IMG/VR virus record: IMGVR_UViG_3300005529_000073
Location: 1-36,637 of that record
Length of the DNA: 36,637 nt
From: a virus
Strand: one strand, 5' to 3'
The position numbers and the translations under genes were made by a program. Shown here one piece after another: positions 23,682 through 35,106 of this stretch. Position 1 is the first letter of the stretch; the number at the start of each line of letters is the position of its first letter. The notes under the pieces were generated by a model. It made no database searches and was not told where the DNA came from. It was given only the letters and a program-made list of their open reading frames with translations.

Positions 23682-24086
23682 GTGGCTACCGTTCCCATTC
23701 CCAAAATCGTTTATGACCCGGGTACAGGCCCGGTTACGCTCAACTTCACGTTTCCCCCGGTTGAGAAGCCGGGCCTGCAAGATGGCACTAGCGATGATCT
23801 GACAGCTCAGCGCGTCGATTCCATGACCCTCAGCGGACATCGCCAAAGCTTTTACGTGCGGACCGATGTCTTCCGAACGTTGACGATGAACTATGTTCCG
23901 TTCACCGACATGCCTGCCTGGTCAGCTTTCATGCAGTACGCCATCACGGGCGGACCGTTCAACTACTTTCCGGATACGACGCAGTCAGGATTCACCGTCT
24001 TCACCCTTGAGGATACGGACTGGAGTCCGCGGCTGTCTTTCCGCACAGTTTCCAAGTTCTCGCTCAAGATGCGCCTCTACGTCTGA
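23682..24086 (+). CDS. Distal tail / minor tail protein
   Basis: A 134-residue GTG-started protein directly after the tape measure gene. Beta-rich segments are PVTLNFTFPPVEKPG, QRVDSMTLSGHRQSFYVRTD, RTLTMNYVPFTDM and KFSLKMRLYV. The central DxxTLSGxRQ pattern is frequent in small minor tail proteins that form the tail-tip ring. It overlaps the following hub gene by one base (TGATG). Confidence 0.65.
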   Translation: MATVPIPKIVYDPGTGPVTLNFTFPPVEKPGLQDGTSDDLTAQRVDSMTLSGHRQSFYVRTDVFRTLTMNYVPFTDMPAWSAFMQYAITGGPFNYFPDTTQSGFTVFTLEDTDWSPRLSFRTVSKFSLKMRLYV

Positions 24087-25366
24087 TGATCTCCGCCAGC
24101 GCAGCTTTCCTCTCCGCCAACGCTACTCTGCGGAAAGAGCCGGTGTTTCTCTTCATCATCTCTGGATACTCCAGAGCCTTTACCAATAAAAAGACGGGCA
24201 TCGCCAGCCAGCTCGATTGGATTGTCAGCATAGGCGATCTGTCCACTCAGGTCAGCGATATGGAGGGCGGGGCGGACCTTGGCCAGTTGGTGGTCACGGT
24301 TCAAGATCAACTGGGCCAGATCACGGCAGCCTTTCCCAACTTCGTGTTTGAAGGCAGGCGGGTCACGCTTTCCACTGGCTTTGTCGGCATGCCGCAATCC
24401 AGCTTTGTGACGCTCTTCACTGGAGTGATCGACAATGTCGCCTCATCCAACCAAAACAGCTGCTATGACTTCACCTGCACCGATAACACCCAGAGGCTTT
24501 CGCAGGTCATTTATACAGTTGCCGACAACGGCAGAGCGACCGACAGCGACAATCATCGGACCTTGAACGGCCATCCGCTCGACATTCTGCTGGCCATCTT
24601 TTCCACTGAACTCGGCCTGGCTGCCACCGATTACAACTCCGCCAAAATCATTGCTTACCGCGACTCGTATTTCGCCGGCGTTCAATTCACCTTTGATCTC
24701 GACAGCCCGCCAAATGCGCAGGAATTTATCGAGAAAGAGATTATGCAGCCGCTGGGCGGCTACCTGTGGACCAATAACCTTGGCCAGTTGGATGTGAATT
24801 TTTTCAACCCGCGAAACGTGACGCCGGTGATGACGCTGGATGCAAACAACACGCTGGGCCCGCCCGAACACGAGATCCCGGTTGCCGCTCAAGCCGACCT
24901 TATCAATACCGCCAGCTTCCGCTTCGACAAGGACGATGAGGGCAAATTCACCTCAGAACACGTGGAAACCTACCCGGCTTCCATCTCGAAATATGGCCAG
25001 TTCGGCCAGGAAGTTGTCGAAAGTCAGGGGTTGCGGTCCGGGCTGCAAGGATTCGTCACAGCAGCCTTCACTTCTGATCTCATTTTCATTCGCTACGGAT
25101 TGAAGCAACTCAAATTCGACCAAAACTTTGACTGCGATTGGACGGCTTGCGTCCTTGAGCCAGGCGACATCATCGCGGTCACCAATCCCTTTATCCCGGA
25201 TCGCACTCTCGGCATCGTTGGCGTCAGCAGCAAGCCCTTTGAAGTGCTGGATCGTTCCTTGAGTTTTGAGAGTGGGACGGTGACTTTGAGCCTCACGGAG
25301 TTTGCTTCCTTTCCTGTCTCCGCGCTCTCGGCGATGCATTTCAATTCCACGGTAACGCTGGGATAG
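24086..25366 (+). CDS. Tail hub / baseplate-like protein
   Basis: A 426-residue protein. The N-terminal domain (FLFIISGYSRAFTNKK, WIVSIGDLSTQVSDMEGG) and VRL-like strands (RVTLSTGFVG, FVTLFTGVIDNVASSNQNS) resemble tail hub proteins of the gp27/T4-like fold. The middle part (PLDILLAIFSTELGL, NAQEFIEKEIMQPLGGYLW) and C-terminal barrel (LEPGDIIAVTNPFIPDRTLG) are as in siphovirus hub or Tal N-terminal domains. No peptidase motif is seen. It is placed between distal tail and fibre genes, as expected for the adsorption apparatus core. Confidence 0.65.
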   Translation: MISASAAFLSANATLRKEPVFLFIISGYSRAFTNKKTGIASQLDWIVSIGDLSTQVSDMEGGADLGQLVVTVQDQLGQITAAFPNFVFEGRRVTLSTGFVGMPQSSFVTLFTGVIDNVASSNQNSCYDFTCTDNTQRLSQVIYTVADNGRATDSDNHRTLNGHPLDILLAIFSTELGLAATDYNSAKIIAYRDSYFAGVQFTFDLDSPPNAQEFIEKEIMQPLGGYLWTNNLGQLDVNFFNPRNVTPVMTLDANNTLGPPEHEIPVAAQADLINTASFRFDKDDEGKFTSEHVETYPASISKYGQFGQEVVESQGLRSGLQGFVTAAFTSDLIFIRYGLKQLKFDQNFDCDWTACVLEPGDIIAVTNPFIPDRTLGIVGVSSKPFEVLDRSLSFESGTVTLSLTEFASFPVSALSAMHFNSTVTLG

Positions 25367-28162
25367 ATGGCCTGCCGAATCACGCTTGCGACGAAGCCTG
25401 GCTTCTCCGATTTACCCTCCAGCGTGCTCACGCCCAGCAGCGATGCCTTAGGCGTCCATCTGGCGCGGATCAATTCCAATGCGGCGTTTGGACTTTGCCG
25501 CATGGAAGTTTTTGTCGGCAGCTACCACGACGGCGAAACGGTTGCCCTGCCCACCAGCGACATCGACGGCTACAAGTATCTCCGAAGCGAACTCACCTAT
25601 GTCTGGGGCATTCAGAACTCGGTCGAGCCAGAATCGGGATGGATCACGGGACCCGACTCCCTCTGGTTTGGCGCGTGGAAGGTTGACCAGGCGACCGGCG
25701 AAGTACACTGTCGGGAATGGTATCGGCGCAGCGGACAAAATGCTCACGAGGCCATCTCTCATGATGGCACCTTGGCTGTTTTCACCATCGCCCAGCGGCA
25801 GCGAACGACTTTACTGGTCTCTAGTCCGCTCAATTCCTACGTCGATGTCAGCAACTCAGCCTTGGGCGCTGGGGGAAGTCTGTCTGCCGTCATTCAGCGC
25901 CTCAATGACAACGCCAAGTTCGGCGCACTCAGCATGGAATGCATCTACATGGGCGAGTTTAGCGATGGCGATACCGTGCCCACTCCGGTTTCGCCCGCCG
26001 ATGGCTACGCCTACTCGCGCGCGCAGATTACGCTGGTCAGTTCCTGGCGCTGGACAACTTACGCCGTTGGCTTCGCTGCGCCGGACATGTCGCTCGGGCA
26101 ACTTGGGCCGATTCTCTGCTCTATCAACCAAACAACAGGCACGGTTTCGGTTACTGTTAATTACTACGATGAAGGCAACCAGTCGCTCAATCCGCACACC
26201 GATCACGGGCGGGTTGCCGTCTTCGCCTTCTGCTCGCGCCACAATTTAATCAGTGGAGTCGGCGGCATCGCCCAGAACTTCGCCGAAATTCCGCCGCAAA
26301 CCTTTTTTCCCGGCACCACGCTGCAGTCGGCGACGATGCAGCAGTTGAATGAGAACATTCGCGAATCGGCGCTCAGTCCTGAGATTTTCGGGCCTACGAT
26401 CTACTCGCACGGGCAAGTGATCCAGCCGGTGGTTTCGCCGAAGGACGGCTATCACTATTCCTACTCGGAAATGCACATCTTATGGGATTGGGCGGATACA
26501 ACCATGGAGATCCCGACCCACCTGCGGATGCCAGCGTTTCTGCTGCATACCGAGTCGCTGCCCATCATTAACCTTGAAGTCTGGCGGCTGCCGCCGGGCG
26601 GACCTTACGTGATGGGCAATCTGAGTTATCCGAAGATTTCTGTCACCGTCATAGGGGTGCGCGAGAACTGCCACTCCACTGCGGTTCCGCCTTCGACATT
26701 TGGCAATCCGACGACTCCGCCGCTGCCACCAGTGCCCGGTGGCGGTCCGCCGCCCAATAGCGGTACGCCCACCCAGATCATTGCATCCTCGATGCTGAAC
26801 TGTCTGGTTGCAGCTAACCAGATTGTTTATCGCTTTGACTTTCCACGTGCCGTGACTTTCGCGATCGATATGGTGCCCAGCCAGGCTTGGGTAGATGTTC
26901 CGCCGTCGACAACGCAGGTATTCACCATCGAGAAGTTCACTTTGGCCAGTCCGACTGTGGGCACACTGATCGGCACGGTAACCTTCTCGCCGGGCAGTTA
27001 TGTGGGGAAGTTTGTGGCGGCCAATTCGACCAGCTTCGCAGTGGGCGATGTGCTGAAAATCGTCGGACCCGCCGTTCCGGGTGATGGGGCAGGAATGGCC
27101 TTCAGTCTGGTTGGCACCGGACTGAACACTTCCGGGCTCCTGGTCAGCATGGTCATTGCGCCCGCGAGCGCTTCGATTGCTGTCGGCGCCACGCAGCAGT
27201 TTTCCGCCATTGGCACCTATTCAGACGGCAGCATCCTCGATTTGTCTGCCTCGGTGGCTTGGGCATCGAGCAATACCGGCATCGCAACCATCGGGTACAA
27301 CACCAGTGGACCGCCGCCGGCGCTCGAAGACTTGCTCGATTGGGTCTTGCTCGCCTATCCGGCGCGAACCACGAACCACATGGCGGGTGCGGGCAACAGT
27401 GCCTATAGCTGGCTCGATGCTGATGGGCAAAAATTCTGGAACATCAAAAACCAACTGGGCCATCCTTGGGATATTCGCACCTACGACGGCACCTACATCT
27501 ATCACTGGATTACCGAGAGTGCCTCGCAGTGGCTGAATGCTTCCGGGTACAAGCGCCACATTAATCCGCAGCCGATTGGGCCGCGCTTCTTCGATCTCGC
27601 CGGCGGACCGGTGACGGTCACCGCGCCCGGGCCTAACACGATTGTCGATACGCTTGCCTGCGAAATTGATGGCCTGCCTTTGATCAATCTGGGAACGGCT
27701 ACGAACGTTTGGACAAACGTCGGAAGCATGAATTGGGGCGGCAGCGTCGGCACTCAGGTAACCCTCCGCGAGAGCCACTACTTTGGCAACCAGCGCGAGG
27801 AATTCTTCTTCTGCAAGGGTTTTGGCCTGGTGCAGTGGACGCATGCCAACCTGACCAGCGGCTCACCGATTACCGGCACCTACCAGATTGACAAGACAAC
27901 CACGCATACCAATCTGGTTTCGGGCGGCTGCCCTGCACCTGTGTTTCCCTGCTACACCAATATCCCCGGACCGACTTTCGGCGGCAGTTGGATCGGAGGC
28001 GCACCCGGAGCTGGGGGAAATGTCGATAACCCAACTCCGGGCGGCGGCGGCAGCGGCACAGGCATCGCTACCGGATTAGCTACTGGTATAAGCACCGGCA
28101 GCGCGACCATTACCGCAACCCTCGGCTCGATCGTTGCCAGCGCGGCATTGACGGTGACCTAA
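25367..28162 (+). CDS. Large tail fibre/adhesin with split Big_2 domain
   Basis: A 931-residue protein. Residues about 1-437 are three divergent copies of a roughly 145-residue module sharing LNDNAKFG-like and DGYxYSxxE motifs (DGETVALPTSDIDGYKY, DGDTVPTPVSPADGYAY, HGQVIQPVVSPKDGYHY). A Pro/Gly linker follows (about 438-470), then a beta domain to about 590. A bacterial Ig-like Big_2 domain begins at about 597 (APASASIAVGATQQFSAIG) and ends in the last 33 residues (GISTGSATITATLGSIV). A separate insert of about 255 residues lies between its halves. The protein starts at the hub stop and probably mediates host binding. Confidence 0.7.
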   Translation: MACRITLATKPGFSDLPSSVLTPSSDALGVHLARINSNAAFGLCRMEVFVGSYHDGETVALPTSDIDGYKYLRSELTYVWGIQNSVEPESGWITGPDSLWFGAWKVDQATGEVHCREWYRRSGQNAHEAISHDGTLAVFTIAQRQRTTLLVSSPLNSYVDVSNSALGAGGSLSAVIQRLNDNAKFGALSMECIYMGEFSDGDTVPTPVSPADGYAYSRAQITLVSSWRWTTYAVGFAAPDMSLGQLGPILCSINQTTGTVSVTVNYYDEGNQSLNPHTDHGRVAVFAFCSRHNLISGVGGIAQNFAEIPPQTFFPGTTLQSATMQQLNENIRESALSPEIFGPTIYSHGQVIQPVVSPKDGYHYSYSEMHILWDWADTTMEIPTHLRMPAFLLHTESLPIINLEVWRLPPGGPYVMGNLSYPKISVTVIGVRENCHSTAVPPSTFGNPTTPPLPPVPGGGPPPNSGTPTQIIASSMLNCLVAANQIVYRFDFPRAVTFAIDMVPSQAWVDVPPSTTQVFTIEKFTLASPTVGTLIGTVTFSPGSYVGKFVAANSTSFAVGDVLKIVGPAVPGDGAGMAFSLVGTGLNTSGLLVSMVIAPASASIAVGATQQFSAIGTYSDGSILDLSASVAWASSNTGIATIGYNTSGPPPALEDLLDWVLLAYPARTTNHMAGAGNSAYSWLDADGQKFWNIKNQLGHPWDIRTYDGTYIYHWITESASQWLNASGYKRHINPQPIGPRFFDLAGGPVTVTAPGPNTIVDTLACEIDGLPLINLGTATNVWTNVGSMNWGGSVGTQVTLRESHYFGNQREEFFFCKGFGLVQWTHANLTSGSPITGTYQIDKTTTHTNLVSGGCPAPVFPCYTNIPGPTFGGSWIGGAPGAGGNVDNPTPGGGGSGTGIATGLATGISTGSATITATLGSIVASAALTVT

Positions 28163-28380: not shown

Positions 28381-29661
28381 ATGCCTGCTGCTGGATCATC
28401 TGCATTCGGCTTGCCTGGGACGCCTTTCAGTTCTCCTGGCGGCTTCTCTTGGCGGCTCGAACAAACCCGCAATGGCTCCATCTATTACTTCGTTGTTCAC
28501 GACGATGATCACCTGACCCCTTCGCCCACGTTTGGCGGCTGGTATGCGCTAACGGCGGATTTTGGCTCTGGGTCGGTTCCATCGTTCTCTTCTGCGGTTC
28601 ATCTCGCCAATACCGATAGCGATCACAATCTGGAAGTCGCGTTCTTCATGGCAGACACCAATGGACTGCTTTGGAATGCCACATCTGGCGATTCGGATAT
28701 TTCAGTTGTCGGGCCAGTGTTGCGGGCCTGGGACGCGCTGAGCGGAACGCAGATTTTTTCCTTTGGCTGTTCCGCGCCAACCAATTCGACGGTTTATGGA
28801 CTGACAACCTTCGAAGACACCGCGATCCCTTATGTCGCTTCGCTGATTCACGACAATGCGGCCACGCCCGATGTCTTTTACCTGAACGTAAACAATGCCG
28901 CTACGGGCGCGCTTGTCGCCGCCCTCGCGATGCCATCCGCAACCCGCGTCATGCCTTACGTGCTCTCGGATGGCATCGGCTACATCTATGCCTGTGGCTA
29001 CAGCTTTTCAGCGGATGAGTACAATATCAGTTCCGCCTACATCGCCAAAATCTCGCTGCTCAGCGGCTCCATTGTCGCCACCTTGCCGCTTACGGTTGGC
29101 GGTACTGGGCCGAATGGCATGATCATGAATCGCTCCAACGGCCAGATCTTGCTGGATTTTACCAATGGAAGCTTCAGCGGCACAGGCGACATCCGCACGA
29201 TCGATTCCATCAACCTGATCGAATTGGGCACCTATTCAGGCCTGTGCGCTAGCTTCATGCGCACGCAGCTTCTGATTCCAAACTGGTTTAACGAAATCCA
29301 TTTTCCGCTGACTCATCATGATGCGGTCACCGGTCCGGCCGTCGATTGCCCTCGCGGAGAGTTCACCGTGGCAAGTCCCAAATCAGGCTCTACGGGCAAC
29401 ATCACTCGAATAGGGCTGCAGAATGCGGTTCCGCTGGTTTTGATCGTGGATACGGTCGCAGGCGCACAATTCGGTACGCAAAACAATGCCTGGGGTTATC
29501 CGTTCAATTACATGACGTGGAATCCGTTCATTGAAGGCTTCATCGGCTGCACCGGAATTGCCAGCAACAACATTGGTGCTGCCATGACGTATGACCCGTA
29601 CACGACCGGGAGTTGCGGTGCAAATCCCTGCACCGGAGCCGACCTGGTGGAGTTCCGCTAA
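28381..29661 (+). CDS. Tail fibre-associated beta-propeller-like protein
   Basis: A 426-residue protein with repeated strand blocks (NGSIYYFVVHDD, EVAFFMADTNGLLWNAT, YLNVNNAATGALVAALAMP, YIAKISLLSGSIVATLPL). The periodic pattern of a strand, a turn such as ATG or LSG, and a second strand resembles a beta-propeller. There is no signal peptide. It is in the receptor-binding part of the tail operon, so host-surface recognition is the likely role. It starts 3 bases after the zinc-knuckle gene. Confidence 0.5.
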   Translation: MPAAGSSAFGLPGTPFSSPGGFSWRLEQTRNGSIYYFVVHDDDHLTPSPTFGGWYALTADFGSGSVPSFSSAVHLANTDSDHNLEVAFFMADTNGLLWNATSGDSDISVVGPVLRAWDALSGTQIFSFGCSAPTNSTVYGLTTFEDTAIPYVASLIHDNAATPDVFYLNVNNAATGALVAALAMPSATRVMPYVLSDGIGYIYACGYSFSADEYNISSAYIAKISLLSGSIVATLPLTVGGTGPNGMIMNRSNGQILLDFTNGSFSGTGDIRTIDSINLIELGTYSGLCASFMRTQLLIPNWFNEIHFPLTHHDAVTGPAVDCPRGEFTVASPKSGSTGNITRIGLQNAVPLVLIVDTVAGAQFGTQNNAWGYPFNYMTWNPFIEGFIGCTGIASNNIGAAMTYDPYTTGSCGANPCTGADLVEFR

Positions 29662-29676
29662 ACAGAAAGAAACTCT

Positions 29677-30711
29677 ATGGCTCGCCAATTCTCGACTGGC
29701 TTCGACTTCTACACGACTGCGACTCAGGAATGGGATGCGTCCAGTGGTACGGTAACCATCAATTCCGCCTCGGCGCGTTTCCAGTTTGCCCATTCTCAAG
29801 GCGTGACGTTCGGATCGGCCGGCTTTATCACTAAGAACCTGCTGAGTGCACAGGCTACCTTGATTCTGGGCTTTGCTATCAAGGTGACAACCATGCCAAC
29901 GGGCGGGAATATCGCCACCTTGCTGGAGTTCTTCGATACGGGAACCGTTCAGGTCAGCCTGGGCTTGAGCTCGGCTGGCGTTCTGCAGTTCTATCGCAAT
30001 GCGCCAACCGGGTCGCCCATCGGCTCGGCAAGCTCGAGCAACGCTTTCACCGGCGGCGTCTGGCATTTTCTCGAAGTGCAAGTCACCTTTGCGACCGGCA
30101 CCGGCGGCTCGGTGCAATGTTGGGTTGACGGCGTTTCGGTCATCAACTCCAGCAGTTTGAATACGAGTCAGAGCGGCACGGCGTCGGCCAACAAGATCAG
30201 CATCGGCAACCTCAGCAACAATTACACTCCCGTAGTCGATGACCTTTACTGCCACGATACCACGGGCGGCGTGAACGACACTCGTCTCGGGGACCGCGTG
30301 ATCCGCACCATCGTGCCCAATGGCGCAGGATCGTTTACCAATTTCACACCTAGCGGCGCGGCCAACAACTGGCAGGCCATCGATGAGATTCCGGCGAATG
30401 ATCTGACCGATTACGTCGCTTCCCCAAATGTGAATGACCGCGATTCCTACACTTTCGAATCAGTCACGCTCGCAGGCAATGCTACCTACCTGGTGCCCAA
30501 AGCCCGAATCGCAAAAGACGATGCCAGCGCCCACACGGTATCGCTCAGCGCGACCGATACAGGAAATGACGCTTTCTCTTCGGCTGTAGCCGTCCCGTCC
30601 TCTTTCGCTCTGGTCGATGGTGGCGCATTCAATTCCAGCCCGAACGGGGCGGCGGCATGGTCGCAAACGGTGATCAACCGCACCGAATGGGGACTCAAAA
30701 TCGTTTCCTGA
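29677..30711 (+). CDS. Concanavalin-like lectin domain tail protein
   Basis: A 344-residue protein. Residues about 1-200 have the LamG/concanavalin-type jelly-roll pattern: FSTGFDFYTTATQEWD, LILGFAIKVTTMP, VSLGLSSAGVLQFYRN, GGVWHFLEVQVTFATG, VQCWVDGVSVINSSS and DDLYCHDTTGG. The rest is a second beta domain (SYTFESVTLAGNATYLVP). Phage proteins with this head domain are common near tail tips and probably bind surface glycans. AGAAAGAAA precedes the ATG as a weak ribosome site. Confidence 0.65.
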   Translation: MARQFSTGFDFYTTATQEWDASSGTVTINSASARFQFAHSQGVTFGSAGFITKNLLSAQATLILGFAIKVTTMPTGGNIATLLEFFDTGTVQVSLGLSSAGVLQFYRNAPTGSPIGSASSSNAFTGGVWHFLEVQVTFATGTGGSVQCWVDGVSVINSSSLNTSQSGTASANKISIGNLSNNYTPVVDDLYCHDTTGGVNDTRLGDRVIRTIVPNGAGSFTNFTPSGAANNWQAIDEIPANDLTDYVASPNVNDRDSYTFESVTLAGNATYLVPKARIAKDDASAHTVSLSATDTGNDAFSSAVAVPSSFALVDGGAFNSSPNGAAAWSQTVINRTEWGLKIVS

Positions 30712-30718
30712 TGCCTGA

Positions 30719-31300
30719 ATGGTTGCAGAAGAATATTGGTTTCTGACTACTCGATGGGCGGACGATAAGCCGCGAGTATTCAGCGGTCCTGATGAGATTC
30801 CTGCCGGTTCGCTCTTCCGCGGCCTGGCTCGGCTTACACAGGAAGTTGTCGAAGTTCTCGCTGCTGGCGCCAGCAATGTCCGCAGCACGCAGGAAGTTGT
30901 CGAAGTTCTCGCCGCTGGCGCTTCCAATGTTCAGCTTACCCAACTCATTCTCGAAATCCTGCAGATTCCCCCGAAGCAGGTTGAGGACGAATACTGGCTT
31001 AATTGGGTCGCACCCGTCCAGGCTGCGCTCTATCAGCCGCTGCCGCTGGGCGATCCGGAAGAGTTGCCAGCCGGTTACTTACTCCGCAGCCTGTCAGTCT
31101 GGGAAGAATACTGGCAGAATCCGGCAGCACCAGTTGCAGCCAGCGTTTACCGAACGCCAGCTTTTCTCGATCCGGATGAATATCCCCATCTTTCCGCGCA
31201 GTTCGCCAAAGTGACGCAAATGGTTGTCGAAGTCATGATGCAGTACCAGTACAGCCCTTATACGGGCTGGACTGGCGTGTCCATGTCAGTCTCATCGTGA
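30719..31300 (+). CDS. Repeat-containing tail-region protein
   Basis: A 193-residue protein. Residues 40-90 hold three 17-residue repeats of the form TQEVVEVLAAGASNV plus two residues; the third is altered (TQLILEILQ). A last copy-like segment, VTQMVVEVMM, sits near the end. Two other parallel segments are EEYWFLTTRWADDKPRVFSG and DEYWLNWVAPVQAALYQPL, then EEYWQNPAAPVAASVYRTP, so the flanks repeat as well. Short TQxVVEVL repeats are seen in small phage tail-region proteins of unknown role. Its stop overlaps the glycosyltransferase start (GTGA). Confidence 0.55.
   Translation: MVAEEYWFLTTRWADDKPRVFSGPDEIPAGSLFRGLARLTQEVVEVLAAGASNVRSTQEVVEVLAAGASNVQLTQLILEILQIPPKQVEDEYWLNWVAPVQAALYQPLPLGDPEELPAGYLLRSLSVWEEYWQNPAAPVAASVYRTPAFLDPDEYPHLSAQFAKVTQMVVEVMMQYQYSPYTGWTGVSMSVSS
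30836..30988 (+). repeat. Three 51-bp tandem repeats
   Basis: Units begin at 30836, 30887 and 30938. The first two share CAGGAAGTTGTCGAAGTTCT and most of what follows, so duplication is recent; the third has diverged. They encode the 17-residue TQEVVEVLAAGASNV-type repeats. Confidence 0.7.
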
Positions 31301-32769
31301 AAACTCTCATCGGCATTACGACCTGCCACCCCTATCGCGAACGGGCTGACTCCATCCGCAACACTTGGGCGGCGGAAGTCGAAGGCGCGGACGTCCGCTT
31401 CTTTTTGGGCGATGGCCCAAAACGCCATGACGATGAAGTTATCCTGGACTGTCCGGACGGCTATCACTATCTCAGCCAGAAAACGCAACTGATTCGACGC
31501 TGGGCGCTAAACCAAGGTTACGATTACCTTTGGAAGATTGACGACGACTGCTACCTGAGACCTGAGCGGCTGCTGGGTTTACCGCCTTATGACTACATCG
31601 GGCGCCTGCGCGGACCCTCGGGCAATTATCTCGCGCCCTACTGTTCCGGCTTCTGCTATGGCATGTCGCGCAAAGCGATGGAACTGATTGCGCGCAATGA
31701 TTGGGCAGCGAATGACGACTTCTCGGAAGACCGCTGGACCGGCAATCAACTGCTCAAGGTAGGAGTCACGCCATTCAATGAAACGCGCTTCATCGTCGAG
31801 TACTCCAAAAACAGCGCGATCAGCGGACGAGAACCGCCGCTGAAGGGCAATCCGATTATCGCATCCTGCGAATACCGGGCGGACTTGATGCACAAAGTGC
31901 ACGAGCAGTACCACAGCGGCAAGGAATCCCAACTCAAGGAGTACCGCCAACCGCACGGCTCGCTTTCCCGCGTTGCCATCATGATCAAGACTTTCCTCCG
32001 GGATGGCTACCTGATGAAGTGCCTGGAAGGGCTGGAGCAGAATTTTCCTGATTGCAAGATCGTGGTTGTCGACGATGGCCGCGAAGCCCGAGCCAAAATC
32101 ACGCGCTACGCGGAACTGCGCCGCAAGAAACATGCCTGCATCTGGCTGCCATTCGATTCTGGCTTCGGCGCAAAAGCCAATGCCGCGATCCCACACTGCA
32201 ATAAAGAGTACATGCTGATCGGCTCTGACGACTTCGACTTCTCTGACCCGACTGTCCGGCCTGGCGTGGAAGCTATGCAGAAAGTTCTCGACGCTGTGCC
32301 CAGTCTTGGCCTCGTTTCCGGCCGCGTCGATTCCAATCCTTATGAATTCATCTGGAAGCCCGGCCTGCGTAGCTTGCAGGAAGTTCCCGATTATCACGGC
32401 AGTGGGCGGGTTAACGGCACGACTTATCATCTTTGTGACTTAACTGTGAATTACTCGCTGATCCGGCGCAAGATCTTCGAGCCCGAGCACGGCGGCATTC
32501 GCTGGGACGGCGGCGACGTAAAGATTGGCGGCGGCGAGCATTCGGCCTTCTTCATCGATCTGCAGCGGTCCTATTGGGGAGTTGCCTACGTTGAAGGCGC
32601 GAACATCAATCAGTTGAAGGGCTGTGAGATCAGCGATCAGTATAGGGCGTTCAATTCGCCGGAGTATCCCAAGATGCGGGCGCGAGCGCGGCAGCCCGGA
32701 AGGCCCTGCCTGAAGGCGCGTGGGATTGATCGCTACATCTTGGGTGATGGGACGGTAGAAGAATCATGA
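31297..32769 (+). CDS. Two-domain glycosyltransferase (GT31-like + GT2-like)
   Basis: A 490-residue GTG-started protein joining two glycosyltransferase domains. Residues 1-200 are GT31/galactosyltransferase-like: MKTLIGITTCHPYR, VRFFLGDG, a DDD metal site (82-84) in YLWKIDDDCYLRPERLL, a CSGFCYGMSRKAMEL acceptor-site segment and EDRWTGN (144-150). Residues 226-490 are GT2-like: VAIMIKTFLRDGYLMKCLEG, VVVDDG (256-261) and DDFDF (311-315). Both halves should transfer sugars from nucleotide-sugar donors, with specificity unknown. There is no membrane segment or signal. Start and stop overlap the neighbouring genes, indicating coupled translation. Confidence 0.8.
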   Translation: MKTLIGITTCHPYRERADSIRNTWAAEVEGADVRFFLGDGPKRHDDEVILDCPDGYHYLSQKTQLIRRWALNQGYDYLWKIDDDCYLRPERLLGLPPYDYIGRLRGPSGNYLAPYCSGFCYGMSRKAMELIARNDWAANDDFSEDRWTGNQLLKVGVTPFNETRFIVEYSKNSAISGREPPLKGNPIIASCEYRADLMHKVHEQYHSGKESQLKEYRQPHGSLSRVAIMIKTFLRDGYLMKCLEGLEQNFPDCKIVVVDDGREARAKITRYAELRRKKHACIWLPFDSGFGAKANAAIPHCNKEYMLIGSDDFDFSDPTVRPGVEAMQKVLDAVPSLGLVSGRVDSNPYEFIWKPGLRSLQEVPDYHGSGRVNGTTYHLCDLTVNYSLIRRKIFEPEHGGIRWDGGDVKIGGGEHSAFFIDLQRSYWGVAYVEGANINQLKGCEISDQYRAFNSPEYPKMRARARQPGRPCLKARGIDRYILGDGTVEES

Positions 32770-33332
32770 AAGCCCTGATCGTCATTCCATCCTGTGCCCG
32801 CGATCGCGAGACGCAACACGCCCAGCGCGAACTCTTGCGGGGCACCGATTACCGCTTCTTTCTGGGCGTCGGCAATGCGCACCCCATGCAAGACGAAGTC
32901 ATCCTGCCCGTGCGCGACGATTACATGGCCCTGCCCGCAAAGGTGCGTCAGGCGTTTCAGTGGGCGCTTGATCATGATTACGATTACGTTTTCAAGTGCG
33001 ATCGCGACACCTACATTCACGCTGATCGCCTGATGGCGGCCGTGCCGATTGGGCAAGACTTCGTCGGACTAGTAGGCAAGGAAGGCGACTGCTGCGGCGG
33101 CGGCGCGGGCTACTGGGTCAGCCGCATCGCCATGGTTTCTTACCTGCAGGCTTACGGCGAACACCAGGTGACGCTCGCCAACTGGCAAAAGATGGAAGAC
33201 TGGTGCTTGTACGTCACCCTGCACCGGAACACGCAGATTCGGCCAGTCTGCGATCGGCGTTACTGGGATCTGCGACTTGGCCCTATTCCCGACCTGGAGA
33301 CAAACATCACATGGAATCCCTGGCATCCCTGA
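32766..33332 (+). CDS. GT31-like glycosyltransferase
   Basis: A 188-residue single-domain paralogue of the first half of the preceding protein. It shares MKALIVIPSC, DYRFFLG, DEVILPV, WALDHDYDYVFKCDRDTYI (DRD metal site at 79-81), GGGAGYWVSRIAM and an acidic ED (144-145) in KMEDW. It is shorter than family members from eukaryotes, lacking any anchor, so it works in the cytoplasm. ATG 32766 overlaps the previous stop by four bases. The donor and acceptor cannot be read from sequence. Confidence 0.75.
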   Translation: MKALIVIPSCARDRETQHAQRELLRGTDYRFFLGVGNAHPMQDEVILPVRDDYMALPAKVRQAFQWALDHDYDYVFKCDRDTYIHADRLMAAVPIGQDFVGLVGKEGDCCGGGAGYWVSRIAMVSYLQAYGEHQVTLANWQKMEDWCLYVTLHRNTQIRPVCDRRYWDLRLGPIPDLETNITWNPWHP

Positions 33333-33898
33333 GCACGACCGAAATTGTCAATCGCGCCTTCGCTGAAGGCATGATTCAGGTGAAGGAAGAGATCACCGCC
33401 TTCTGCGATTTTCTGCGTGAGCGCCAGCCGCGCAACATGCTGGAAATCGGCTCAGAGTCGGGCGGCACCTTCTACCTATGGTGCCAGCTCGTTTCCGGAC
33501 TGAAGATCTCGCTTGATCTGCCGAATGGGGCGTCGGGAAGCTGGCGCTTTATTGACCCGCAGTTGCTCGCCGAGCGCAATCAGAAGATGCTGAGTTGGGC
33601 GCCGAACGTCCGTCTGCTAACCGGCGACTCGCATGACCTGGCGATGCAGCAGCGTGTCCGCGATCTACTTGGCAGCCAAACCCTCGACCTGCTCTTCATC
33701 GATGGCGATCACTCTTACGAAGGCGTGAAACAAGATTTCGAAATGTATCGGGAATTTGTCACTACACCTGGCGGCCTGATCGCTTTCCATGACATTCAGC
33801 ATCTCGGCCCGCAGCAGCTCTGGGCGGAACTCGGCGGCAACAAGCGCGAATTTAACCGGCACCTGCACTGGGCAGGCATCGGCGTCATCGAACTGTGA
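33311..33898 (+). CDS. Class I SAM-dependent methyltransferase
   Basis: A 195-residue protein of the Methyltransf_24/CmcI-like type. Motif I is NMLEIGSESGGTF (42-54), the acidic end of the next strand is ISLDLP, and DLLFIDGDHSYEGVKQDF (127-143) with GGLIAFHDI (154-162) forms the metal/substrate end. Related enzymes methylate sugars or small hydroxylated substrates. ATG 33311 lies inside the upstream gene; the open frame to 33203 is longer but has no better start. It overlaps both neighbours, so it is part of the glycosyltransferase cassette and may methylate the added sugar. Confidence 0.75.
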   Translation: MESLASLSTTEIVNRAFAEGMIQVKEEITAFCDFLRERQPRNMLEIGSESGGTFYLWCQLVSGLKISLDLPNGASGSWRFIDPQLLAERNQKMLSWAPNVRLLTGDSHDLAMQQRVRDLLGSQTLDLLFIDGDHSYEGVKQDFEMYREFVTTPGGLIAFHDIQHLGPQQLWAELGGNKREFNRHLHWAGIGVIEL

Positions 33899-34605
33899 AA
33901 TACCTGATCGCCATCTCCAGCTGCTACGATTTCGAGAAGAACGGGAACAATAACGCCATGCGGGAGACATGGCTGCCCGACATCGTGCACTTTCCCGGAT
34001 TGCAATATCGCTTCTTCATGGGACATGGGCAGGGCGCACAATCGGCCGAACTCAACCCTGACTCCGTCTTTCTGGCCGACGTTCCCGACGACTATGGACA
34101 TCTGACCTACAAGACGCGCTCGTCGCTGCGCTGGGCCGCTGAGCACGGTTACGACTTCGTCTTCCGCTGCTTCCCTGACACTTACGTGCGTCTCGATCGC
34201 CTGATGACGTGCGGCTTCACCGAGCATGATTATTACGGCGACTTCCGCGGCGATCCATCGACCAACGAAGTCACGCATCAGCGGGCGCAGAACTATGCCA
34301 GCGGCGGCCCGGGTTACTGGCTGTCGAAGCGCGCTTACACGCTGCTGCTCGATGCGCCCGTGCTGGGCGTCTGGCGCGACGAGATCACGCCTTACACCGA
34401 AGATCTGTGGACGGGCAACATTCTCGGCCGGCATCTCGATGTGAAGCTACGTTACTTTGACGACACCCGGCGCTTCATGAACCGCGGCAGCCGCTCGTGT
34501 GCTTGGCCCGCCCCGTCGAATGACATCATCACCGCGCATCTATCCTGCCCCGATCACCCCTACACGACCGATCGAATGTTTCGAGCACATCGCATCTGGG
34601 CCTGA
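33895..34605 (+). CDS. GT31-like glycosyltransferase with altered DxD
   Basis: A 236-residue GTG-started protein, third paralogue of the cassette: MKYLIAISSC, QYRFFMGHG, WAAEHGYDFVFRCFPDTYV, SGGPGYWLSKRAY and TEDLWTGN (169-174). Where the others have DDD or DRD this one has FPD (93-95), so the first metal-binding Asp is missing. It could bind the donor differently or be inactive on its own. The start overlaps the methyltransferase stop (GTGA). A Cys and His-rich C-terminus (AHLSCPDHPYTTDRMFRAH) is specific to this copy. Confidence 0.7.
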   Translation: MKYLIAISSCYDFEKNGNNNAMRETWLPDIVHFPGLQYRFFMGHGQGAQSAELNPDSVFLADVPDDYGHLTYKTRSSLRWAAEHGYDFVFRCFPDTYVRLDRLMTCGFTEHDYYGDFRGDPSTNEVTHQRAQNYASGGPGYWLSKRAYTLLLDAPVLGVWRDEITPYTEDLWTGNILGRHLDVKLRYFDDTRRFMNRGSRSCAWPAPSNDIITAHLSCPDHPYTTDRMFRAHRIWA

Positions 34606-34617
34606 AAGGCTTCTCTC

Positions 34618-35106
34618 ATGACAACCCTACAAAAGCAATTTCTGCAGGCCGCGTGTGCCGCTGCGCGCGAGGCTGGGCATATCTTCCCCGAAATGGCCGC
34701 CTGCGAAGCGGCACTCGAGTCAAATTACGGCCGTTCGCTACTGGCGCAAAAAGACAACAATCTCTTCGGGATGAAGCAGCACAAACACCCGATCTATGGG
34801 ACACACAGCTTGCCCACTCGCGAGTTCCTGAAGGGCCAATGGGTCGTCGTCACGGCCGACTGGGTCAGCTACCCAAACTGGCAAACCTGCTTCGAAGATC
34901 GCATGGCGACGCTGAAGCGACTGGCGGACACTTACCTTCATTATGCGAATGCTCTGCGCGCGGCTTCCGCCGTCACTTACATCAATGAAGTTTCGCTCAC
35001 CTGGTCAACCGACCCTGCCCGCGCCACTAAAGTGCTGGCCATCTACGACTTGATGGGCGGCGATTGGTTGCCGCCTTTCGTCTCGGACGATCAGCGACTT
35101 TCGTAA
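34618..35106 (+). CDS. Endolysin, GH73-like glucosaminidase
   Basis: A 162-residue lytic enzyme that cuts the glycan strand of peptidoglycan at host lysis. The family motif CEAALESNYGRSLLAQ with the likely general acid Glu34, and DNNLFGMKQHK right after it, are clear. Further on are the typical YPNWQTCFEDRMATLKRL and VTYINEVSLTWSTDPARATK. There is no signal peptide, so export relies on a holin. It is a single catalytic domain of normal size. It lies between the sugar-modifying cassette and the holin-like gene. Confidence 0.85.
   Translation: MTTLQKQFLQAACAAAREAGHIFPEMAACEAALESNYGRSLLAQKDNNLFGMKQHKHPIYGTHSLPTREFLKGQWVVVTADWVSYPNWQTCFEDRMATLKRLADTYLHYANALRAASAVTYINEVSLTWSTDPARATKVLAIYDLMGGDWLPPFVSDDQRLS

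Follow-up and report, generated by a model that had tools for sequence, protein, structure and literature searches.

A soluble GT31-centred glycosyltransferase and methyltransferase cassette linked to one tail fibre family in soil phages

Our analysis of the 36.6 kb IMG/VR virus record IMGVR_UViG_3300005529_000073 (hereafter the window) concerns a cassette of four enzyme genes at 31297-34605 on the + strand, bounded by putative fibre genes and the endolysin. The cassette is a real, conserved, phage-owned enzyme set that combines domains like those of glycosyltransferase family 31 (GT31), a GT2-type domain and a methyltransferase-like protein, and its first gene is linked to one family of tail fibres and exchanged horizontally. 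With about even confidence, we propose that the cassette builds a methyl-capped oligosaccharide and that the phage's own fibre carries it.

The original prediction, made from the DNA letters, placed four genes with overlapping starts and stops between the fibre genes and the endolysin, and both coordinates and overlaps hold (Table 1). Gene 1 begins within a GTGA shared with the stop of the putative fibre open reading frame (ORF) before it, 30719-31300. Genes 1 and 2 overlap by 4 bases (ATGA), genes 2 and 3 by 22 bases and genes 3 and 4 by 4 bases (GTGA), and the endolysin ORF begins 12 bases past gene 4. The start of gene 3 is put at the ATG at 33311 because homologous proteins support it; a mechanical ORF finder calls the gene as 33203-33898, with a start that is probably wrong. 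A sigma-70-like site was looked for on the + strand of the cassette region, and none was found. The phage-type location, and translation tightly coupled to that of the adjacent tail-region ORF, bear out the predicted placement in the late operon. The enzymes also appear to be soluble, as predicted: none of the four proteins has a candidate membrane segment, the maximum 19-residue hydropathy being <=0.89.

The N-terminal part of gene 1 matches the Pfam Galactosyl_T/GT31 family (PF01762, 6.6e-10, 39.5 bits, above the curated cut-off of 23), and its C-terminal part matches Glycos_transf_2 (PF00535, 7.2e-12, also above the curated cut-off). Gene 4 barely reaches the PF01762 cut-off, at 23.3 bits, and gene 2 is under it on its own, at 19.8 bits. 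Despite this score we class gene 2 as GT31-like because it is paralogous to genes 4 and 1. The three GT31-like domains are indeed paralogues of each other, as had been claimed, with profile-comparison E values of 7e-29 for genes 2 and 4, 1e-23 for genes 2 and 1, and 2e-26 for genes 4 and 1. Gene 3 matches Methyltransf_24 (PF13578, 1.2e-14, 55.4 bits against a curated cut-off of 26.3) and RMNT_CmcI (PF04989, 1.4e-7). Its best solved relative is 6g7d (1.3e-5), an entry whose identity could not be confirmed.

Gene 1 has DDD and EDRWTGN in its GT31-like part and VDDG, SDDF and KIGGGEH in its GT2-type part, all of them invariant in six phages and largely retained in eight diverse ones. The gene 3 motifs EIGSESGGTF and DGDHSYEGV, of the SAM-binding kind, are kept across six phages. 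Gene 2 has DRD plus an ED motif. Gene 4 retains EDLWTGN and has FPD at the DxD position, where the last Asp alone is kept, in all six aligned phages. Profile matches in the PDB are B3GNT2 and B3GALT6 for the N-terminal part of gene 1 and, weakly, B4GALNT1 (1.5e-4) for its C-terminal part.

Structure prediction of each domain had been proposed as a check, and it succeeded for gene 4. The gene 4 model has a mean predicted local distance difference test (pLDDT) score of 83.7, and its top 33 PDB matches in Foldseek are all GT31-type (best 1.2e-11). They include B3GalT5, B3GNT2, CHSY3-CHPF (CHSY3-CHPF1 is the fourth match), B3GalT6, C1GalT1 and Manic Fringe, at 13-24% identity to the GT31 enzymes; domain 1 of PBCV-1 A064R (2p6w) matches more weakly, at 1.1e-5. 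The predicted fold of gene 4 is thus the GT31 variant of GT-A, like that of beta-1,3-Gal/GlcNAc transferases. The gene 1 model, built from six sequences, was too poor to use (mean pLDDT 41.7) and was left aside.

A search for the same gene set in related phages, another suggested check, finds the complete set of four genes, in unchanged order, in six more IMG/VR phages, or seven phages with the window, and this recurrence excludes chance. In five of the six, the cassette proteins are mostly 49-80% identical to those of the window (one gene 2 is 38% identical), and the common tail proteins (such as the tape measure, hub and fibre) are 30-51% identical. Phage L032 (G010) is more distant, with cassette identities of 34-50%. 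The ratio of nonsynonymous to synonymous substitution rates (dN/dS), where computable, is ~0.09-0.25, an approximate figure with synonymous sites near saturation. Two relatives, G004 and G005, have the tail end and the cassette in common with the window but no detectable shared terminase, portal or capsid.

What follows gene 1 differs more widely among phages: a GT2 gene in L102, a methyltransferase in L104, an epimerase plus a GT31 gene in L108 and a GT31 gene in L100. Such variation of genes 2-4 around gene 1 is as expected for a conserved core with variable outer sugars. Variable inserted ORFs are present in G001, G003, G004 and G005; the one in G001 (L005:7324-8004) is an additional 226-amino-acid gene between the methyltransferase and gene 4, with no Pfam or NCBIfam match. 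In G002 (L004:5198-5349) a short tandem duplication has left a second copy of the first 20 codons of gene 1 ahead of its real start, at a distance of 151 bases.

Gene 1 is linked to the fibre family of the 25367-28162 protein. A search profile made from residues 5-433 of that protein finds 17 viral loci, ten of which have gene 1 within 10 kb. A search from the gene 1 side, independent of the fibre and with gene 1 defined by its GT31-GT2 domain order, finds the fibre family in 12 of 14 testable records (13 of 15 with the window); it is absent from the whole record in the gene 1 carriers L113 and L120. When control phages with other GT31 clusters are searched over the whole record, the family appears in one of 11. 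In L117 the cassette has moved to a site upstream of the tape-measure gene, yet the same genome keeps the fibre where it normally lies, after the hub. The link is thus more than a matter of adjacency, although L117 is a single case. Several phages of the fibre family have no cassette, and in these the fibre is followed by lysis genes.

Table 1. Cassette genes, the linked fibre and neighbouring features in the window
Feature	Coordinates	Strand	Description
Gene 1	31297..32769	+	GTG start; 490-amino-acid fusion of GT31-like N-terminal domain and GT2-type GT-A C-terminal domain
Gene 2	32766..33332	+	188-amino-acid GT31-like protein, DRD motif
Gene 3	33311..33898	+	S-adenosylmethionine-dependent O-methyltransferase-like protein; Methyltransf_24, weaker RMNT_CmcI match
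Gene 4	33895..34605	+	236-amino-acid GT31-like protein; FPD replaces DxD, YTEDLWTGN retained
Putative tail fibre, gene-1-linked family	25367..28162	+	PF02368 Ig-like domain; Ser+Thr 18.7%; candidate acceptor
Variable ORF between fibre and gene 1	28381..29661	+	Candidate acceptor by position; Ser+Thr 18.5%
Variable ORF between fibre and gene 1	29677..30711	+	Candidate acceptor by position; Ser+Thr 23.3%
Variable ORF between fibre and gene 1	30719..31300	+	Candidate acceptor by position; Ser+Thr 11.9%
Endolysin	34618..35106	+	phrog_3513, E 4.7e-22

GT31-like genes are more widespread in phages than this cassette, one profile scan giving 55 viral loci. Among 150 ORFs that neighbour phage GT31 genes, 20 are epimerase/GDP-mannose dehydratase, 14 GT2, nine GT11 and eight FkbM methyltransferase matches, which indicates that phage GT31-like proteins are generally located in glycan-building clusters. 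The FPD motif occurs in 11 of 104 phage GT31-like segments in a simple motif scan that left 27 segments unclassifiable, and YPD, FSD, FCD and YHD occur in single segments of the same scan. Two larger phages, L011 and L012, have GT31-like, GT11-like fucosyltransferase and methyltransferase-like genes grouped with an ORF resembling a dual-specificity phosphatase, near the terminase (neighbours assigned by eye).

Close homologues in host polysaccharide clusters would have pointed to a host role, and close relatives are essentially absent from bacterial genomes. A bacterial genome scan with gene 1 gave no match. In 50,697 annotated phage records, neither DNA searches for distant similarity nor protein searches turned up a relative of the cassette, gene 1, gene 4 or the 24086-25366 tail protein. 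L027, a contig of a Bryobacterales metagenome assembly, has gene 4 (61% identity) and the same endolysin, together with a truncated gene 2 and an inserted GT2-like gene. L027 is phage-like and so suggests an Acidobacteriota host, with misbinning possible; the host of these soil phages is probably among the Acidobacteria. Across 399 genomes of the class of this assembly, GT31-like matches occur in three: that of L027, G198 and G057. The match in G198 is on a second phage-like contig (L091:1974-3476), where a GroEL-like chaperonin lies near a terminase ORF and the GT31-like gene. The match in G057, on contig 44 (L090:6959-8530), is a chromosomal-looking GT2-GT31 fusion with reversed domain order and is the single distant chromosomal homologue among the 399 genomes. 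It adjoins a large glycosyltransferase-like ORF and a large protein, both assigned by us from sequence, the latter presumably of the DUF4157 kind. DUF4157 proteins are associated with extracellular contractile injection systems.

We infer a cytoplasmic, phage-owned assembly line that would produce a short methylated oligosaccharide late in infection, alongside the tail and lysis proteins. The conserved core, gene 1, would use its GT31-like and GT2-type domains to attach one or two inner sugars, and the GT31-like products of genes 2 and 4 would lengthen the chain from host sugar nucleotides. Gene 3 would O-methylate one sugar, plausibly the terminal one. No sugar-nucleotide epimerase was found in the window's cassette or in the six closest records, and the window's cassette would draw on host donors. 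The most likely acceptor would be the tail fibre of the 25367-28162 family or the adjoining Ser/Thr-rich fibre-like proteins. In favour of this scheme we count the coupling to the upstream fibre-like ORF, the absence of membrane segments and of hydroxymethylase, epimerase or above-threshold GtrA matches, the four-gene order in phages with partly unrelated heads, the fibre-family linkage including L117, the variability of genes 2-4 and the glycan-cluster context of phage GT31 genes. We also suggest, tentatively, a broader picture in which a horizontally exchanged GT31-GT2-centred module is dedicated to a single tail fibre family in soil phages with probable Acidobacteriota hosts. Its outer transferases and methyltransferases would be swapped from phage to phage, giving a similar fibre a different, often methyl-capped, glycan, and an [FY]xD subclass of GT31 would take part.

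Several results, including some that suit a host target and are given with it below, weigh against decoration of the fibre. Some fibre-family records have no GT31 gene at all (56.6, 40.5 and 33.9 kb), and fibre sequences are far more variable than the cassette. In a mirror-tree test, gene 1 and fibre distances are uncorrelated (r = 0.08, p = 0.39), and across the fibre, hub and neighbouring tail protein the values for gene 1 are r 0.07-0.09 and p 0.28-0.40; no sequence-level co-evolution of gene 1 with the fibre is seen. If the fibre is the acceptor, the acceptor feature must stay constant as the fibre sequence changes. The departure of the gene 1 tree from the tail genes indicates that gene 1 has been exchanged horizontally among phages of this tail type. 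That it was acquired repeatedly beside one fibre family speaks for a functional tie, but a recombination hot spot would also account for it, and the fibre-lysis junction could merely be such a site for accessory genes. The predicted decoration of the phage's own fibres is supported in part, by the specific linkage to one fibre family but not by cassette divergence, which does not track that of the fibre.

The apparent indifference of the acceptor to fibre sequence would suit a different target. The cassette might act on a glycan of the host envelope or on its precursor in the cytoplasm (O-antigen, exopolysaccharide or outer-membrane glycolipid), in a lysogen or late in infection, and so block adsorption of other phages or of released progeny. 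Integrase or recombinase genes occur in some relatives, several of which may therefore be temperate; the tail-lysis interval is a usual site for accessory genes; and GtrB-like O-antigen conversion models match two of the 150 ORFs neighbouring other phage GT31 genes. Small related membrane ORFs lie within the cassettes of G004 (L007:9639-9893) and G005 (L008:11511-11774), each with weak, sub-threshold GtrA similarity (E ~0.045), and may be a flippase fragment or a holin-like protein. We nevertheless consider an envelope target, the main rival reading, less likely than the fibre. GtrA (PF04138) does not rise above threshold in six records and the cassette has no membrane-anchored transferase, in line with the original view that this is not classical lysogenic O-antigen conversion, for which gtr-type genes were not found. 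In addition, the coupling to late genes makes a separate promoter hard to accommodate, the cassette is enriched with one fibre family even after relocation in L117, and the class of 399 genomes holds only the one distant chromosomal homologue.

It is improbable that the cassette is a mobile accessory (moron) block at a tail/lysis recombination hot spot, with a target unrelated to the neighbouring fibre. Presence or absence of the cassette varies at one place, the gene 1 tree is independent of the tail genes, and four relatives carry the variable ORF insertions noted above, all as such a block would have it. However, the GT31-GT2 gene 1 is nearly confined to fibre-family phages, and many unrelated phages have other GT31 clusters without that fibre. 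Diverse phage DNA glycans have reportedly been described by Pyle et al. in 2024. Glycosylation of phage DNA on a hydroxymethylated base, as in T4, is highly improbable here: DNA can be a target of phage glycosyltransferases, according to literature cited in PMC12619734, but the cassette is in a late position beside tail genes and we rejected this target because no thymidylate-synthase-family hydroxymethylase (PF00303) was found in the window and seven related records, among them ones of 52 kb and 59 kb, all eight possibly incomplete.

If the glycan is attached to a fibre, as we favour, the ORFs at 28381-31300 are further candidates to carry it (Table 1). They match phrog_2448 and phrog_13560, both annotated as of unknown function. 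The fibre-like ORF at 29677-30711 has a sub-threshold match to a polysaccharide lyase (PF14099, 1.7e-4) and a homologue at the same place in G004. In G010 (L032:1870-2409) a collagen-like protein with Gly-X-Y repeats has the fibre on one side and the cassette on the other. As collagen-like proteins are known to be O-glycosylated in bacteria, it is a candidate acceptor in this phage.

Should the fibre prove to be the acceptor, the cassette would offer a testable case in which a fibre surface is rewritten through swaps of sugar-adding genes and not through fibre mutation. Such swaps would be relevant to the ways in which phages escape recognition or adjust adsorption. Because the enzymes are small, soluble and encoded in a short operon, the acceptor question is tractable by co-expression of cassette and fibre. 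Beyond this cassette, phage GT31-like proteins look like a source of glycosyltransferases that has been little explored.

The original prediction also held that a glycan of this kind would be a little-described system, which is true in part. Our literature search on phage GT31, tail fibre glycosylation and glycosyltransferases of Acidobacteria prophages found nothing relevant. The GT31-based enzyme set and the fibre linkage are undescribed in the searched literature, but phage virion glycosylation itself is already known. Phage-encoded glycosylation of mycobacteriophage virions was reported by Freeman et al. (2023), as three citing papers have it (PMC12619734, PMC13313380, PMC10955285). Citing papers place the glycans on capsid and tail tube subunits, at their C-termini, and one treats the joint presence of a glycosyltransferase and a methyltransferase as indicating that virions are glycosylated. 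The present cassette resembles the mycobacteriophage systems in that its glycosyltransferases are phage-encoded, and, as expected of a virion glycosylation system, they lie outside DNA-modification and gtr contexts. Here the core enzymes are GT31-like and tied to a soil-phage fibre family.

A precedent, by functional analogy, is A064R of the chlorovirus PBCV-1, in which two transferase domains and a methyltransferase, with proven activities, finish the methylated end of the capsid glycan (PMC9614988). Like the cassette, A064R is virus-encoded and soluble, and it pairs glycosyltransferase domains with an O-methyltransferase; it comes from a eukaryotic algal virus and belongs to other GT families, and the analogy is functional only. 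With the GT31 enzymes B3GalT5, B3GNT2, B3GalT6, C1GalT1 and Fringe, the GT31-like cassette proteins share the predicted fold (gene 4), an EDxW-type motif and Pfam Galactosyl_T. Unlike these enzymes, they are without a membrane anchor, are ~190-236 residues long and have FPD (gene 4) or DRD (gene 2) as against DDD. Gene 1, in which another GT-A domain comes after the GT31 one, recalls the chondroitin synthases CHSY3-CHPF, which combine GT31 and GT7 in one chain. However, its second domain matches PF00535 and B4GALNT1 (GT12) and no GT7 model, and polymer synthesis is not implied. Finally, like the gtrABC genes for O-antigen conversion in temperate phages, this is a glycosyltransferase cassette borne by a phage, but it has no above-threshold flippase or membrane transferase and is instead a soluble multi-enzyme set coupled to late genes.

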